Source: Peterkaempfera bronchialis
Lineage (GTDB): Bacteria > Actinomycetota > Actinomycetes > Streptomycetales > Streptomycetaceae
Assembly: GCF_003258605.2 (NCBI RefSeq)
Contig: NZ_CP031264.1
Coordinates: 4,650,001 to 4,714,000, forward strand
DNA: 64,000 bases
Direction of reading: 5' to 3'
Numbering within the stretch: position 1 is the first letter of the stretch; each line of letters begins with the position of its first letter. This document shows positions 35,369 to 54,235 of this stretch, piece after piece. The translations under genes and the position numbers were made by a program. The notes beneath the pieces are model-generated. The model saw only the letters and a program-made list of their open reading frames with translations. It was not told the origin of the DNA and did not search any database.

Positions 35369-36079
35369 CTACTCGGCCACCGTGGCGTCGGGTGCCTGAA
35401 GCTGCATCAGCGTGGCCGTGAGGCTGTAGACCAGGGTCCTGCCCTGGATGCTGTTCCCGGCGTGCTCATCGATCCGGCCGGTGACGGTGACCCGCTGCTG
35501 GTCGCCCGGGTCGAGCTTGAAGTAGTCCGCGAACCCGGCGTAGTCCGCGTCGGTCCGGGTGTATGGGACGTCCCCGGACTGCGGTGCATTGGGCCCCAGG
35601 CTGTGGGCCAAGGCGTCGTCCAGGTCGATGTCGAACTCCTTCCCCCCGAGGTACCGGCCGCCGCTGCCGCGACGCTCGATGGTGATGTGCAGATGGAAGT
35701 ACTTGAGGTCGGCCTCCCGGACGGCCTGGACGCTTCCGCTTGATGGACCGGCCGTTGGTGAACCGAAGGTCTTGGCAGGGCCCTCGGCGCCGTCCCGGTG
35801 CAGGGCGAGCCGTACCTTGCCGCTCAGCGAGCCGCTGCCGGTGAAGACGGCCGTGAGCGTAGGCAGTGGGCTGCCCGGCACCAGGTCGGTCGCCGACGGC
35901 CCCGGGGCGGTGGAGGCGGAGCCGAAGGTGAGCGTGCCGGACTGCACCGTCGTGGAGCCGGTGTTCTGCGTATCGGTGAACCAGGCATACGTCCCTCCGG
36001 TGACGGCCACCGCAGCGGCGGCCAGGGATACCGATCCGGCGAGCGCGGCGACCTTCCTGCTGCTCCTGAACACGCTCAT
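35369..36079 (-). CDS. Exported TasA/CalY-like protein with an AWFTD signal
   Basis: The 236-aa product begins MSVFRSSRKVAALAGSVSLA, a signal peptide, followed by GGTYAWFTDTQNT (AWFTD at 32-36). This is the hallmark of proteins processed by SipW-type signal peptidases, such as the TasA/CalY biofilm-fibre family. The mature domain is beta-rich, with GSLSGKVRLALHRD and LKYFHLHITIERRG. No Cys is present. Its start is 294 bp from the divergent SipW-type peptidase gene, the expected processing enzyme. A role as a surface fibre or spore-coat protein is inference from the family. Confidence 0.8.
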   Translation of the reverse strand: MSVFRSSRKVAALAGSVSLAAAAVAVTGGTYAWFTDTQNTGSTTVQSGTLTFGSASTAPGPSATDLVPGSPLPTLTAVFTGSGSLSGKVRLALHRDGAEGPAKTFGSPTAGPSSGSVQAVREADLKYFHLHITIERRGSGGRYLGGKEFDIDLDDALAHSLGPNAPQSGDVPYTRTDADYAGFADYFKLDPGDQQRVTVTGRIDEHAGNSIQGRTLVYSLTATLMQLQAPDATVAE

Positions 36080-36373
36080 CCCGTCCCGACCGCCCTCATG
36101 TCCGCCCGCCCGCCGCTGCACCCGACAGGGCGGGGCAGCTGCCCGTCCGCACCTCCCTGCCGGTGCGGCGTCTGACGACAACTGTGCCGGGGTGCGCCCA
36201 CCCCGCACATCACCAAAGCGCGGTAAGCGCCTATCCCCACTTTTGACGATGCGTGGCGACCGCCGGACGGCAAGGATCGACCGGGCGACCGGTGTCAGGG
36301 CCTCCGGCCGCGACGCACATACCGCCCGGCGGCCCACCGGCCGGGCGGCAGGCAAGAGCGGGAGATCATCTGT

Positions 36374-37207
36374 ATGGCGACCACCGCTCCCCGGGCGAGG
36401 GGAACGCACCGTCGCCCCGCAGCCGGGCGCACGGCGCAGGGCGGAGCCGGGGGAGTGCGGCGCCTTCGCGGCCTCGGCCGCACCACGCCGGCGGAGCCCG
36501 GGCCGCCGCGCGGCCCCCGCAGCGCACCCGCCGGGCGTGCCCGCGTGCTGCGCACGGCCGGCCATGCGCTGCTCCTGCTGGCCGCCACGGCGGCGGGCGC
36601 GCTGGCCCTGGCGCTCACGCTGCTCCCCCTGGCGGTGCACGGCTCGGTGCTCACCGTCCTCACCGGCAGCATGGCCCCGACCATCCCGCCCGGCTCAGTG
36701 GTGGTGGACCGGCCGGTCCCGCCGGAGCTGATCAGGACCGGTGACATCGTCACCTTCCGGGCCGGCCGCTCACCCGGCGGCGGCGAGCAGCTGGTCACCC
36801 ACCGGGTCGTCGCCGTCCACAGCAGCCGGGTCGGCCTCTCCTTCACCACCAAGGGCGACGCCAACCGCGTGGACGACCCCGGCCGCCGGGACGCGTCCGA
36901 TGTCCGGGGCCGGGTCTGGTTCCACCTGCCGCAGGTCGGCCTCTGGCGGCAGCGGCTGCTCTCCCGGGCGGGCGCGCTGGTCGTCGGCGGGCTGGCGCTG
37001 GGCATCTGGGGCGCCCGCACCCTCGCCTGGGCGCTGCGCCCGGGCGAGGGTGCGGACAGCGATCCGGACAGCGACGCAGACGGCGGCCCTGGCCGTGACC
37101 CGGCCGGCGGCCCGGCCGGTGACCGGGGCGGCGAGCCGCAGCGGCCCGCCCCCCGGCGGCCCGGTCGCCGGGCGCACGGCATCGTGGAGTGGGACGGCGG
37201 TGCCTGA
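36374..37207 (+). CDS. SipW/ER-type signal peptidase I
   Basis: The 277-aa membrane peptidase has a long Arg/Gly/Pro-rich cytoplasmic N-terminus (1-58), a membrane helix (about 61-90) and the catalytic region. The nucleophile is Ser99 in LTGSMAPTIPPGS, and the general base is His143 in LVTHRVVAV rather than the Lys of standard bacterial type I enzymes, which marks the ER/SipW subclass. A second helix (ALVVGGLALGIWGARTLAWAL) precedes an acidic tail. GGGAGA is eight bases before the ATG. It is flanked by two genes whose products carry AWFTD signals. Confidence 0.88.
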   Translation: MATTAPRARGTHRRPAAGRTAQGGAGGVRRLRGLGRTTPAEPGPPRGPRSAPAGRARVLRTAGHALLLLAATAAGALALALTLLPLAVHGSVLTVLTGSMAPTIPPGSVVVDRPVPPELIRTGDIVTFRAGRSPGGGEQLVTHRVVAVHSSRVGLSFTTKGDANRVDDPGRRDASDVRGRVWFHLPQVGLWRQRLLSRAGALVVGGLALGIWGARTLAWALRPGEGADSDPDSDADGGPGRDPAGGPAGDRGGEPQRPAPRRPGRRAHGIVEWDGGA

Positions 37208-37649
37208 CCCCGGACGCCACCGCCGGCGGCCCACGCCCACCGCCGTTCCGGGGCCCCTGCGGCGCCTGGCCGCCGCCGTCCTCTTCGGCGCCGCCGGTGC
37301 CTGTGCCGGCACCCTCTGGGGTTCCACCGGGGCCTGGTTCACCGATATCACCGAGTCCGAGACCGTCCATGTCGACACCGCCCCCGAAGCCCCCGAAGCC
37401 CCCGCCGCCCCCGAAGCCCCCGCCGCCCCCGAAGCCCCCGCCGCCCCCGACCCCGGCGCAGAAACGCACAGCCTGGACAGCACCCCCACCGACCGGGCCG
37501 CCACACACCGGGCCCCCACCGACCGGCCCACAGCCGCCCCGCCACCCGGTGGCCACTCCGGCCCCGGCTCCGGCTCCGGCCCCGGCTCCAGCCTCGGCTC
37601 CGGCTCCAGCCCCGGCGCAGCGGGCCGCACCCGGGGGCGTGGACCCTAG
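37200..37649 (+). CDS. Small exported protein with AWFTD signal and Ala/Pro repeats
   Basis: The 149-aa product starts at a GTG inside the end of the peptidase gene (8-bp overlap). It has a basic start, a hydrophobic helix (LRRLAAAVLFGAAGACAGTLW) and GSTGAWFTDITE (AWFTD at 45-49), the same SipW-type mark as the divergent exported protein. The rest is low-complexity: AAPEAP repeats (60-84), then Thr/Pro/Asp and Gly/Ser runs ending in Arg. It could be a short-lived precursor, an anchor or a disordered surface protein. The overlap with the peptidase gene argues for a dedicated enzyme-substrate pair. Confidence 0.68.
   Translation: MPDPGRHRRRPTPTAVPGPLRRLAAAVLFGAAGACAGTLWGSTGAWFTDITESETVHVDTAPEAPEAPAAPEAPAAPEAPAAPDPGAETHSLDSTPTDRAATHRAPTDRPTAAPPPGGHSGPGSGSGPGSSLGSGSSPGAAGRTRGRGP
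37380..37447 (+). repeat. Ala/Pro-coding tandem repeats
   Basis: Repeats of gcccccgaagcccccgcc type (18 bp, three near-exact copies plus 9-bp half units) code the AAPEAP run. Confidence 0.8.
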
Positions 37650-37967
37650 TGCCTCGCCCGTCGACCTTTGCCCCGCCCACCGCCCCGGCACGCACAGCTG
37701 CCGCGTTGGCGAACCACCCACGGACAACCCCGGGACGCCTCGCTCCCGGGCAGACGTCGGCAGGCGTGGACCCTAGCGGGCATGGCGTTGCGATGGGGGG
37801 AATCCGCCGGTTCGGCACCGGTTGTCGGTGCGCTGGACTACTATCCGTCACGCTGCGGTGCAGTACGGTTGCACCGCGTTGATCTGCCCGCCTGCGGGCC
37901 GCGTCCCAGCCCGCCGCCTGCGCGTCCGGGCCGGGCCGGGGTTCGCCTCGGCGGCTGGGGGATGCGT
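37650..37967. other. 318-bp gap upstream of the histidine kinase
   Basis: No gene is seen. A 13-bp direct repeat gcgtggaccctag occurs at 37637-37649, covering the stop of the preceding gene, and again at 37764-37776. An inverted repeat GGTGCA-GTACGGT-TGCACC lies at 37857-37875, just after TACTAT (a possible -10). The kinase promoter is probably here. Confidence 0.45.
37857..37875. promoter_or_regulatory. Inverted repeat upstream of the histidine kinase gene
   Basis: GGTGCA-GTACGGT-TGCACC is a perfect 6-bp inverted repeat with a 7-base centre, about 100 bases before the start of the kinase. It may be the site for the cognate LuxR-type regulator. Confidence 0.35.
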
Positions 37968-39470
37968 ATGACAGCCGGACACCAGACCTCCGCCCGCCGG
38001 GAGCACCGGGCCCCACGGCGACCGCTGCCCTGGGTCCCGAGCCGCTGGGGACCGACCGGCGACCTGGTCGCCACCGCCGCCGCAGCGGGCGCCACGGCCC
38101 TGCTGGTCGCGGCGGGCTCGGCCGGCCGGCTGCTGCCGCTCCGCCAGACCCATCTGCTGCTCGTCCTCGCCGCCGCCGGCGCCGGGGCCGCAGCGGTCGG
38201 CATCGCCGCCCTCACCCCCCGGCTGGCCGGTGGGATCGGCCGCCCGCACCCCTATGTCGCCGCCGCCCTGCTGCTGCACAGCCTGGTGCTGATGCCCGCC
38301 TCGGTGGTGGACACCAGCTCCGACCAGGCGCTGCGCTGGCTCGCCGCCACCCGCTTCACCGCCTCCGGCTGCTTCGTCCTGCTGCTGGCCGCCGCTCTGC
38401 TCCCCCACCCGCCCCGCTGGACCCGGGGTCTGCGCGGCGCCCTGGCCGCCGTGGCCCTGACCGCCGCCGGCGGCCTGCTCGGCCCGTCCCTCGGGGGCCT
38501 GCACACCGCCCTGGGCGGACACCGCCCGGCCGCCCTGGTGGTGATCACCGGCTGGCTCGCCGTCGCACTGGGCCACCTCCGCACCGGGCTGCGCCGCCGC
38601 GACCGGCTGCGCAGCCGCCTCGGATTGGGGCTGACCGTGGCCGCCGTCGCCCAGCTGGGCCGGGTACTGGCCGGCCACCCCGCCTGGGCGCCGGACCTCA
38701 CCTCGGCCGCCCTCCGGCTGCTCGGCCTGTCGATCGTGCTGGCCGCGCTGATCGCCGACTTCCTGCACCAGGCCGACCAGGTGGAAGGCCGCCTCCAGGC
38801 ATCGGACCACCGCGCCCGGCAGGCCGCCGAGCGCGACCATGAGATGCGCAATGTGCTCGCCGGGCTCTCCGGCGCCGCCTATCTGCTGCGCGCCACCGGC
38901 TCCCGGCTGGACCCCGGCGAGCAGGCCGAGTTGGGCGCTGCCGTCCAAGCCGAGCTGGAGCGGCTGCGGGAGTTGCTGGCCCGCGACGGCGACCGCCCGC
39001 CGGGCGCCCCCGGCGGCCATGAGGTGGAGCCGGTGCTGCGTCGGCTGGTGATGCTGCGCCGTACGGTCGGCGCCGATGTCGAGCTGACAGCCGACCCCGG
39101 ACTGCGGACCACCGTGCCCGCCTCCGTGGTGGCGCAGACGGCCACCAATCTGCTCGCCAACTGCGAGCGGCACGCCCCCGGCGCCCGGGTCCGGGTGACG
39201 GCCCGGCTGCGGGACGGCCGGGTCCGGGTGGAGGTGGCCGACGAGGGGCCCGGCCTGGCCCCCGGCGCGGAGCAGCAGGTGCTGGGGCGCGGGGTGCACG
39301 ACTCCGGGGCGGGCGGCAGCGGCCTCGGCCTCTACGTCAGCGCCCGGCTGCTCGCCGAGCACGGCGGCACCGTCCGGCTGCTGCCCCGAGACCCGCTGCT
39401 GCCGGGCTGTACGGCGGTGCTGGAGCTGCCCGCCACCGAGGCTCCGCGCTCACACGCGTCCGCCGCCTGA
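37968..39470 (+). CDS. Membrane sensor histidine kinase
   Basis: The 500-aa sensor has seven or eight predicted membrane helices in residues 30-265 with almost no extracellular loop, so the signal is likely felt in or near the membrane. A short coiled linker leads to the phospho-acceptor His291 in RDHEMRNVLAGL. The ATPase domain has an N box (TNLLANCERHAPG), a G1 region (VADEGPGLAPGAEQ) and GSGLGLYVSARLL. The start is one of two ATGs six bases apart (37962, 37968); the second has better spacing from GGGGG. It is followed by its likely response regulator. Confidence 0.9.
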   Translation: MTAGHQTSARREHRAPRRPLPWVPSRWGPTGDLVATAAAAGATALLVAAGSAGRLLPLRQTHLLLVLAAAGAGAAAVGIAALTPRLAGGIGRPHPYVAAALLLHSLVLMPASVVDTSSDQALRWLAATRFTASGCFVLLLAAALLPHPPRWTRGLRGALAAVALTAAGGLLGPSLGGLHTALGGHRPAALVVITGWLAVALGHLRTGLRRRDRLRSRLGLGLTVAAVAQLGRVLAGHPAWAPDLTSAALRLLGLSIVLAALIADFLHQADQVEGRLQASDHRARQAAERDHEMRNVLAGLSGAAYLLRATGSRLDPGEQAELGAAVQAELERLRELLARDGDRPPGAPGGHEVEPVLRRLVMLRRTVGADVELTADPGLRTTVPASVVAQTATNLLANCERHAPGARVRVTARLRDGRVRVEVADEGPGLAPGAEQQVLGRGVHDSGAGGSGLGLYVSARLLAEHGGTVRLLPRDPLLPGCTAVLELPATEAPRSHASAA

Positions 39471-39556
39471 CGGGCCAAGCCCGGCGCACCCGCCCGGCGA
39501 ACCCGCCCGGCGAACCCGCCCACGAACCGCCCCCACCGCCACCTCCGGGGAAGACC

Positions 39557-40237
39557 GTGACCGTTCTTGTCATCGACGACCACCGGCTTGTCGGTACCAG
39601 CCTGGTGCTGGCCCTGCGCGGGCACGCGCTGGACGCCCGCAGCGCCACCGGCCGTACCCTCGCCGCCCTGCTGGACGAGGCCGCCGCGCTGCCGCCCGGC
39701 CTGGTCCTGCTCGACCTGGACCTCGGCCGGGGCGACGACGGCACCGAGCTGGACGGCGTCGAGCTGGTGGCCCCGCTCTGCGCGGCCGGCTGGACGGTGC
39801 TGGTGGTCACCGGCACCTCCGACCGGTCCCGGGTCGCCGCCGCGGTCTGCCGGGGCGCGGTGGGCTGGGTCGCCAAGTCGGCGCCCTTCGAGGACCTGGT
39901 GCGGGCGGCGGTGGACGCTGCGGCGGGCTTCCCGGTACTGGCCCCCGCCGAGCGGGCCGAACTGGTCGCCCTGCACCGCCGCACCGTCGCCGACCGCACC
40001 GGCCGCCCCGCCGACCGGGACCGCCTGCTGGACCGGTTGACCCCCCGTGAGCTGGAGGTGCTGCGAGCGCTCGCCGAGGGCAAGCGGGCCCGCGCCATCG
40101 CCGAGGAGTCCTGGGTGGCGCTCTCCACCGTCCGCAGCCAGATCCGCGCCATCCTCACCAAGCTGGAGGTCAACTCCCAGCTCCAGGCCGCGGCGCTGGG
40201 CCGTGAACTGCTGGCCCCGCGCCGCGACCGTGACTGA
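39557..40237 (+). CDS. LuxR-type response regulator
   Basis: The 226-aa protein has a receiver domain with Asp7-Asp8, phospho-acceptor Asp53 in LVLLDLDLG and Lys in WVAKSAPF. A C-terminal LuxR helix-turn-helix follows (LTPRELEVLRALAEGKRARAIAEESWVALSTVRSQIRAILTKLEV). The HTH is slightly unusual in having AIAEESWVAL where most have IA..L.VS. GGGGAAG precedes the GTG at 39557. It pairs with the kinase 86 bases upstream and probably controls the neighbouring export module, itself, or both (inference). Confidence 0.92.
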   Translation: MTVLVIDDHRLVGTSLVLALRGHALDARSATGRTLAALLDEAAALPPGLVLLDLDLGRGDDGTELDGVELVAPLCAAGWTVLVVTGTSDRSRVAAAVCRGAVGWVAKSAPFEDLVRAAVDAAAGFPVLAPAERAELVALHRRTVADRTGRPADRDRLLDRLTPRELEVLRALAEGKRARAIAEESWVALSTVRSQIRAILTKLEVNSQLQAAALGRELLAPRRDRD

Positions 40238-52324: not shown

Positions 52325-54235
52325 CTAGACCAGGCTCTCCCGCCAGGCCTGGTGCAGATCGGCGAAGCGGCCGGCGGAGCCGATCAGCTCGGCGGGGGAG
52401 CCGTCCTCGATGACCCGGCCCTGGTCCATCACCAGGACCCGGTCGGCGATCTCCACCGTGGAGAGCCGATGGGCGATGATCACCGCTGTGCGACCGGCCA
52501 GCACCGTGCGCATGGCCTCCTGGACGGCCCGCTCACCGGGGACGTCCAGCGAGGAGGTGGCCTCGTCCAGGATGAGCACGGCCGGGTCGGCGAGCAGGGC
52601 GCGGGCGAAGGCGACCAGCTGCCGCTGGCCGGCCGAGATCCGGCCGCCGCGCTTGCGGACATCGGTGTCATAGCCCTCCGGCAGGGCGGCGATGAAGTCA
52701 TGGGCGCCGATGGCCCGCGCCGCCTGCTCCACCTGTTCCCGGCTGGCCCCGGGACGGCCGACCGCGATGTTGTCGGCCACCGTCCCGGAGAAGAGGAAGG
52801 ACTCCTGGGTGACCATCACCACGCCGCGCCGCAGGTCCGGGGTGGCGAGGTGGCGCAGGTCCACGCCGTCCAGGGTGACCCGGCCGCCGGTGGGGTCGTA
52901 GAACCGGGCCAGCAGCTTCGCCAGGGTGGACTTCCCGGCGCCGGTGGCGCCGACCACCGCGACGGTCTGCCCGGCGGGCAGCAGCAGGTCGAGCGGGGGC
53001 AGCACCTCCTTGCCGGTGCGGTAGGCGAAGGAGACGCCGTCGAAGACCACCTCGCGGCCCCGGGCGGCGGCCTCGGCCCGTTCGGGCAGCGGCACCGGAT
53101 CGGACGGCTCGGCGACGGTGGGCTCATGGGCCAGCAGCCCGGCGATCTTCTCCAGCGCCGCCGAGGCCGACTGGTAGCTGTTGAGGAACATCGCCAACTG
53201 GTCGATGGGGTCGTACAGCCGCCGCAGATAGAGCACGGACGCGGCCAGCACCCCCAGCTGGAGGCTGCCGTCGGTGACCAGGTAGGCGCCCCACAGCACC
53301 ACCCCGGTGAGCCACACATTGGCGGTGGCGCGGGCGGTGGCGACAAAGCGGGCCATCTCCAGCATGCCGTCCGCATTGGCCTTGGCATACAAGGAGTTGA
53401 CGGTGGCGAAGGCCGCGTCATTGGCCCGCTCGCGGCGGAACGCCTGAACCGGCCGGATACCGTTCATGGTCTCGGTGAAGCGGACGATCACCGTGGCGAC
53501 CGCGGTGCGCGAGGTCCGGTAGACCTTGCGCGAGCGGCGGCGGAAGGACCGGGCGAGCAGGAACATCGGCAGGAAGGAGGCCAGCGAGGCCAGGCCGAGG
53601 CGCCAGTCCATGACCAGCAGCAGCACCGAGACATAGGTCACCGAGAGCGCCACCGCCAGCAGCTCCTGCAACCCCTCGTTGAGCAGCTCCCGCAGGGCGT
53701 CCACATCGCTGGTCGCCCGGGAGATGATCCGGCCGGAGGTGTAGCGCTCGTGGAAGTCCAGGCTGAGCCGCTGGGCGTGCCGGAAGATGCGGCCTCGCAG
53801 GTCCAGCAGGATGTCCTGGTTGATCCGGCCGGAGATCCGGATGAAGGCGCGCTGGAGCAGCGTGCCGAGCAGGGCGCAGCCCAGATAGGCGGCGGTGACG
53901 GCGATCAGCGGGCCGGAGTCGTGGTCGCGCAGCGCGGGGATGGCCCGGTCGATGGCGACCGCCACCAGCAGCGGCCCGGCCTGGAGCGCGGCCTGCTCGA
54001 CCAGGATCAGCAGCATGGCGGTGGCGATCCGCCGCCGGTGCGGGCCCATCAGGGAGAGCAGCAGGGCCCGGGGTGCTCCGACCGGGACGGGGATGTCCTC
54101 GTCCTCCGGGGTCGACCCGCCGGGCGCGGGCGCCGTGGCGATGGATACGCCGGGAGGGGCGCCGGGAGGGGCGTGCGGAGGAGCGTAGGGCTCGGCCGGG
54201 AGGGCGTCCTGCTCCGAGTCGGTGGCGGAGGTCAT
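52325..54235 (-). CDS. ABC exporter, half-transporter B (canonical ATPase, altered signature)
   Basis: The 636-aa protein has a Pro-rich N-terminus with APPHAPPGAPPG, six membrane helices (about 60-350) and a C-terminal ATPase domain. That domain has Walker A GATGAGKST, Walker B VLILDEATSSLD with catalytic Glu and an altered signature ISAGQR. Its ATG overlaps the stop of the partner gene (ATGA). The partner has the opposite defect, so the two form a heterodimer with one good and one degenerate ATP site, as in TM287/288 or BmrCD. Substrate unknown, likely lipophilic drug or lipid. Confidence 0.93.
   Translation of the reverse strand: MTSATDSEQDALPAEPYAPPHAPPGAPPGVSIATAPAPGGSTPEDEDIPVPVGAPRALLLSLMGPHRRRIATAMLLILVEQAALQAGPLLVAVAIDRAIPALRDHDSGPLIAVTAAYLGCALLGTLLQRAFIRISGRINQDILLDLRGRIFRHAQRLSLDFHERYTSGRIISRATSDVDALRELLNEGLQELLAVALSVTYVSVLLLVMDWRLGLASLASFLPMFLLARSFRRRSRKVYRTSRTAVATVIVRFTETMNGIRPVQAFRRERANDAAFATVNSLYAKANADGMLEMARFVATARATANVWLTGVVLWGAYLVTDGSLQLGVLAASVLYLRRLYDPIDQLAMFLNSYQSASAALEKIAGLLAHEPTVAEPSDPVPLPERAEAAARGREVVFDGVSFAYRTGKEVLPPLDLLLPAGQTVAVVGATGAGKSTLAKLLARFYDPTGGRVTLDGVDLRHLATPDLRRGVVMVTQESFLFSGTVADNIAVGRPGASREQVEQAARAIGAHDFIAALPEGYDTDVRKRGGRISAGQRQLVAFARALLADPAVLILDEATSSLDVPGERAVQEAMRTVLAGRTAVIIAHRLSTVEIADRVLVMDQGRVIEDGSPAELIGSAGRFADLHQAWRESLV

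Follow-up and report, generated by a model that had tools for sequence, protein, structure and literature searches.

A SipW-type cassette of Peterkaempfera bronchialis, probably for the production and export of a biofilm-type protein fibre

The analysed window is a stretch of 64,000 nucleotides from the genome of Peterkaempfera bronchialis, and coordinates refer to this window unless stated otherwise. A gene for a SipW-type (ER-type) signal peptidase of 277 amino acids is located at 36374-37207 on the plus strand and is flanked by the genes of two exported proteins, which we call substrate 1 and substrate 2. Substrate 1, a protein of 236 amino acids with a SipW-type signal, is encoded on the minus strand (35369-36079) with an ATG at 36079 and a stop codon ending at 35369. 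Its open frame runs on to 36640, far 5' of this plausible start. The divergent intergenic region (36080-36373) contains the promoter region between substrate 1 and the peptidase. Substrate 2 (37200-37649, plus strand, 149 amino acids) starts with a GTG at 37200 and therefore shares its first 8 bases (37200-37207) with the end of the peptidase gene. The AWFTD codons are located at 35972-35986 in substrate 1, in the context VAVTGGTYAWFTDTQNTG, and at 37332-37346 in substrate 2, in the context LWGSTGAWFTDITESE. Downstream follow, on the same strand, a histidine kinase with an N-terminal membrane region and a HATPase_c domain (37962-39470) and its partner, a NarL/LuxR-type response regulator with Response_reg and GerE domains (39557-40237). 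An earlier note on this DNA had described AWFTD behind the signal helix of two exported proteins flanking a SipW-type peptidase with S99 and H143, one gene overlapping that of the peptidase by 8 bp and the other divergent. The translations and coordinates confirm this description.

The peptidase scored 68.9 bits against TIGR02228 (ER-type signal peptidase I, SipW-like; cut-off 51.85). The predicted catalytic pair is Ser-His and not Ser-Lys, with S99 in the sequence TGSM and H143 in THRV, and both residues as well as D162 are invariant in alignments of relatives. Against the Bacillus SipW equivalog model NF046067 the score was 50.8 bits and thus below the cut-off of 190; we therefore regard the enzyme as SipW-like and not as the Bacillus equivalog. 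A search of the 7.09-Mb genome revealed one peptidase above the TIGR02228 cut-off and one protein above the TIGR04088 signal cut-off, each at this locus. Using the degenerate pattern GCNTGGTTYACNGAY for AWFTD-coding DNA, two sites were detected in the whole genome, both of them here, whereas the reversed pattern used as a control had no occurrence. Two AWFTD sites at one locus are above chance. Elsewhere in the genome (L004, C1:3052163-3052255, minus strand) an unrelated protein contains a sub-threshold SipW-type signal, GGGYAAFTASANADDN, with the sequence GGGYAAFTAS. This protein is a possible further substrate, and it is therefore not proven that there are two substrates only.

For comparison within the genus we used three Peterkaempfera genomes, the two relatives being P. 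griseoplana (L020) and a strain deposited as Streptacidiphilus sp. ASG 303 (L019). Both relatives keep the divergent substrate 1, the overlapping substrate 2 and the 8-bp overlap. The earlier note had put up for checking whether the block is conserved in other Streptomycetaceae: the peptidase is present in 3/3 Peterkaempfera genomes, with the block kept in all three, but was found in none of the 34 other Streptomycetaceae genomes searched. With the family HMM the peptidase exceeded the cut-off in 5 of 150 Streptomycetaceae genomes, three of which are Peterkaempfera, and within the genomes covered by these searches the three-gene block was found in Peterkaempfera only. The motif of substrate 2 reads AWLTD or AWLSD in the two relatives. 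The AWFTD of the earlier note is thus present in both proteins of the window, but its exact letters are not essential, the pattern of substrate 2 in the genus being GAW[FL][TS]D. In another Streptomycetaceae genome (L102, G022) a SipW-type peptidase and a TasA-like protein are located near a transposase-like gene, which suggests mobility.

The assignment of substrate 1 is based on TIGR04088 (SipW-dependent signal peptide; 23.8 bits, cut-off 19), on its orthologues, which are 84-86% identical, and on a structural model. The TasA equivalog NF046066 was matched with 12.4 bits, under the cut-off of 450. Profile iteration starting from substrate 1 led to a full-length TasA-like protein beside SipW in Ornithinibacillus; the late rounds with 193-222 matches were left out of homology claims because signal helices alone draw matches. 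When the PDB was searched with sequence profiles of substrate 1, no solved relative emerged. An AlphaFold2 model from six sequences was of low confidence (pLDDT 57.6, pTM 0.58). For this low-confidence model the best solved match was the TasA fibre 8AUR, with a Foldseek E-value of 3.8e-6 and a probability of 1.00, and the structural comparison gave a Z-score of 9.2 over 170 residues at an rmsd of 5.1, the next chain reaching 6.6. Further matches were the TasA monomer 5OF2 and the bundling pili of Pyrobaculum. The structure prediction proposed in the earlier note thus supports the view that substrate 1 is a TasA-type fibre subunit with the TasA beta-sandwich fold, as far as such a model can be relied on.

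Alignment of the three genomes showed conserved blocks in the divergent intergenic region, including CTATCCCCACTTTTGACGATGCG and the inverted repeat CCGCACCTCCCTGCCGGTGCGG (36147-36168) upstream of substrate 1, which is identical in all three. A sigma-70-type promoter was not recognised at 36080-36373, and promoter and terminator scans were empty. Elsewhere in the genome the inverted repeat has a single near-copy, at 53000-53021; as this lone copy is perhaps simply coding, we dropped the repeat as a regulator site of a regulon and claim no regulon. A shared element of the CTATCC type was also rejected. Ahead of the kinase gene a second inverted repeat, GGTGC-N9-GCACC, is located at 37857-37875, and its half-sites are kept in the three genomes.

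SipW-type peptidases are common in the class (103/395 genomes). Many of them adjoin genes with the sister motifs ALWN, AYFTD or AAWSD. According to the earlier note, peptidase homologues without AWFTD neighbours would speak against the module. Taken literally, such homologues exist in many genomes, but their neighbours carry sister motifs of the same signal type, and the module idea is therefore not refuted. The other actinobacterial loci share with the cassette the peptidase family, the signal type and, frequently, an exported gene overlapping or abutting the SipW end. They differ in that the followers have RTX, anchored or other folded domains and in that the kinase/regulator pair is mostly missing. 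Planosporangium (L021) and a Frankiales MAG (L023) have an RTX-type counterpart of substrate 2 at the SipW end, and L178 has one after the fibre gene; in each case the protein begins with a hydrophobic signal and a short segment, continues with RTX repeats (PF00353) and ends in a tail rich in Pro and Ala. The loci L021, L023 and L138-L140 each encode a protein with an LPxTG- or LAxTG-like anchor at its end, which is LAMTG-like in L139. No protein with such an anchor was seen in the cassette of the window, and a search of the P. bronchialis genome for the L139 anchor protein, run without a positive control, gave no match, a negative of little weight. In the related cassettes L138, L139 and L140 three TasA-like paralogues are divergent from the anchored protein, SipW, kinase and regulator. 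In L141 (3392-4870, minus strand) one protein unites RTX repeats with a TasA-like signal region and a tail of Pro/Ser/Glu, and this cassette also has a related kinase/regulator pair. In Arthrobacter-group loci (L030, L040, L050, L083 and similar ones) the gene directly after SipW encodes a short exported protein in which the signal helix precedes ALWQQSATATMTV, a candidate for another accessory class.

For substrate 2 no curated family exceeded its cut-off and TIGR04088 did not match; the AWFTD motif was all that these comparisons left. The model consists of the signal helix with no fold beyond it, which bears out the earlier statement that the second substrate has no fibre domain. In the three Peterkaempfera genomes residues 1-62, comprising the signal region and WFTDITESETVHVDTAP, are under purifying selection (pN/pS 0.35-0.40), whereas the tail, for which the alignment is unsure, gave a pN/pS of about 0.8 and hence shows little constraint. 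Conservation is limited to the signal, the motif and about 14 residues beyond. The tail is poorly kept in length and sequence among the three orthologues, all of which share its low-complexity Pro/Ala/Gly/Ser composition.

The earlier note suggested that the second substrate may be an anchor or a new kind of accessory, and of such roles we favour that of a TapA-like initiator. In Bacillus subtilis, TasA filaments are initiated by TapA, which donates its N-terminal strand, and secretion of TapA residues 44-57 alone is enough for a strain to form a proper biofilm (PMC10151520). The N-terminus of TapA resembles the TasA donor strand (PMC9674648). Substrate 2 would be a natural 'minimal TapA', composed of a donated strand and a disordered tail. 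It would work like TapA and not be a member of that family, as the folded Ig domain behind the N-terminal strand of TapA has no counterpart in the model of substrate 2. Past the motif, the strand likeness between substrates 1 and 2 is matched by 3-4% of random or shuffled segments and is weakly above chance; for this reason the strand donor is put forward as a proposal.

The main rival to the strand donor, possible but in our estimation unlikely, is that substrate 2 is a tether to the wall or matrix and not an initiator, either because the tail threads the wall or because an uncut signal helix stays in the membrane. A tail rich in Pro/Ala and Gly/Ser in 3/3 orthologues would suit this function, as would the RTX repeats and Pro-rich tails of the counterparts in L021, L023 and L178, and other SipW loci often encode anchored proteins, of which none was seen in this cassette. 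However, it is the segment behind the motif that is conserved and the tail that is poorly so, and substrate 2 contains no sortase motif. Improbable, in turn, is a decaying paralogue of the fibre subunit that retained the signal and the first strand alone. The AWFTD signal common to both substrates, the missing domain and the nearly unconstrained tail would fit such a remnant, but purifying selection acts on the N-terminal region in three species, the frame and the 8-bp overlap are kept, and accessory genes that follow and overlap SipW are found repeatedly in other families.

The regulator of the cassette is 46-50% identical to regulators adjoining SipW in L021 (49%) and L138-L140. Relatives of the kinase and regulator adjoin SipW/TasA genes in nine actinobacterial loci outside the genus (L021, L138-L141 and L176-L179), located upstream of the module in L021 and L141 and downstream in L138-L140. 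In addition, L181 contains the pair beside a SipW fragment at a contig end. We performed a blind adjacency test in which the regulator profile alone was run on the 395 genomes of the class, leaving out the loci that had built the profile. The profile matched in 32 of the 395 genomes. Four matches (G219, G224, G263 and G400) were located within 5 kb of a SipW match where about 0.12 were expected, which in a simple Poisson model corresponds to a P of about 8e-6. The loci of these matches (L176-L179) contain kinase, regulator, SipW and TasA-like genes together, the TasA-like labels being approximate as they come from a third-round profile model. At the level of whole genomes SipW occurred in 21 of the 32 regulator-positive genomes compared with the 103/395 overall, but one family dominates this count, and we therefore relied on adjacency and did not take the co-occurrence as proof.

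That the pair is a chance neighbour without a role in the module seems hardly more than a slim prospect. Among 80 SipW loci it was found in two Peterkaempfera loci and in L021 only, so it is missing from most of them, and no regulator site was identified. On the other hand, the same kinase and regulator lineages stand beside SipW/TasA genes in several families and on either side of the module, the blind test gave a clear excess, and there is a precedent in Clostridium perfringens, where the two-component system BsaRS is required for, and binds, the sipW promoter (PMC7395162). We conclude from gene order that the linkage between the pair and SipW is real, though of a minority type, and by recurrence the pair would belong to the cassette. 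The self-contained three-gene unit of the earlier note thus stands as a SipW export module, but its boundary was drawn too narrowly, since the pair at 37962-40237 recurs alongside.

A role of substrate 1 as a secreted protease (camelysin) or another enzyme, instead of a fibre subunit, is very improbable: the match to PF12389 (camelysin metallo-endopeptidase) is below threshold (19.2 vs 22.5 bits) and confined to the signal region, an HExxH motif is missing from substrate 1, and the TasA fibre tops the structural list with other fibre-forming beta-sandwiches lower.

The tapA-sipW-tasA locus of B. subtilis resembles the cassette in that a SipW-type peptidase serves two substrates which share one signal type and of which one is a subunit with the TasA fold, predicted in our case (PMC10151520, PMC9674648), and in the overlap of the accessory and peptidase genes, tapA and sipW in that species (PMC10151520). 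The cassette differs from B. subtilis in its divergent fibre gene, in an accessory gene located after SipW whose product lacks the Ig domain of TapA, and in a two-component pair standing alongside where B. subtilis has control by SinR. The sipW-tasA-calY locus of B. cereus likewise combines SipW with TasA-type fibre proteins and has no TapA orthologue, but it encodes two full TasA-type paralogues instead of one fibre subunit and a domain-free protein (PMC4292775). The operon sipW-bsaABCRSD of C. perfringens unites SipW, a polymerising secreted protein and a kinase/regulator pair in one locus, the regulator pairs being likened by gene content and not by homology (PMC7395162). As described there, that locus is one long operon and not divergent, and no overlapping domain-free substrate is reported in the part available. 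Two-component control of sipW is known from C. perfringens, and the principle is therefore not new. TasA-type fibres in actinobacteria were not described in the titles and abstracts of the open-access papers searched; subscription journals and preprints were largely outside this search.

Taken together, the cassette probably serves to make a biofilm-type protein fibre and to export it with a signal-cutting enzyme of its own, and a dedicated fibre-export cassette is the explanation that we find best overall and fairly probable. For processing, polymerisation, strand donation and regulation we infer the following course. Both substrates would be exported via Sec, and the SipW-type peptidase would cleave them directly in front of WFTD. 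With a cut at this position both substrates of the window have an aromatic P2', and the two orthologues of substrate 2 have Leu; an aromatic P2' residue helps to make TasA a poor substrate for the ordinary signal peptidase LepB of Escherichia coli (PMC10269814). Substrate 1 is predicted to fold as a TasA-type beta-sandwich and, by analogy with TasA, would polymerise in that each subunit inserts its N-terminal strand into the one after it. The strand-like N-terminus and disordered tail of substrate 2 would allow it to donate a strand but not to accept one, and it would therefore start or cap the fibre. That it does so, holds the fibre near the wall and corresponds in nature to the truncated TapA (mature residues 44-57) is a tentative reading, quite possible by analogy. 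The downstream kinase and NarL-type regulator may control the cassette promoter, as their recurrent linkage suggests.

In our judgement this is a known kind of system that is rare in Streptomycetaceae and to which a linked two-component pair and an unusual domain-free accessory are added here. It is conceivable, but speculative, that it represents an actinobacterial class of two-component-controlled TasA/SipW cassettes in which a domain-free strand donor overlaps the peptidase gene and its tail, RTX elsewhere and low-complexity here, sets the hold on the surface. If the proposed roles are correct, a bare strand donor like the one obtained in Bacillus by truncating TapA would occur in nature, a sensor would be attached to TasA-type fibres outside Firmicutes, and the cassette would offer a compact system to test donor-strand fibre assembly in multicellular actinomycetes.
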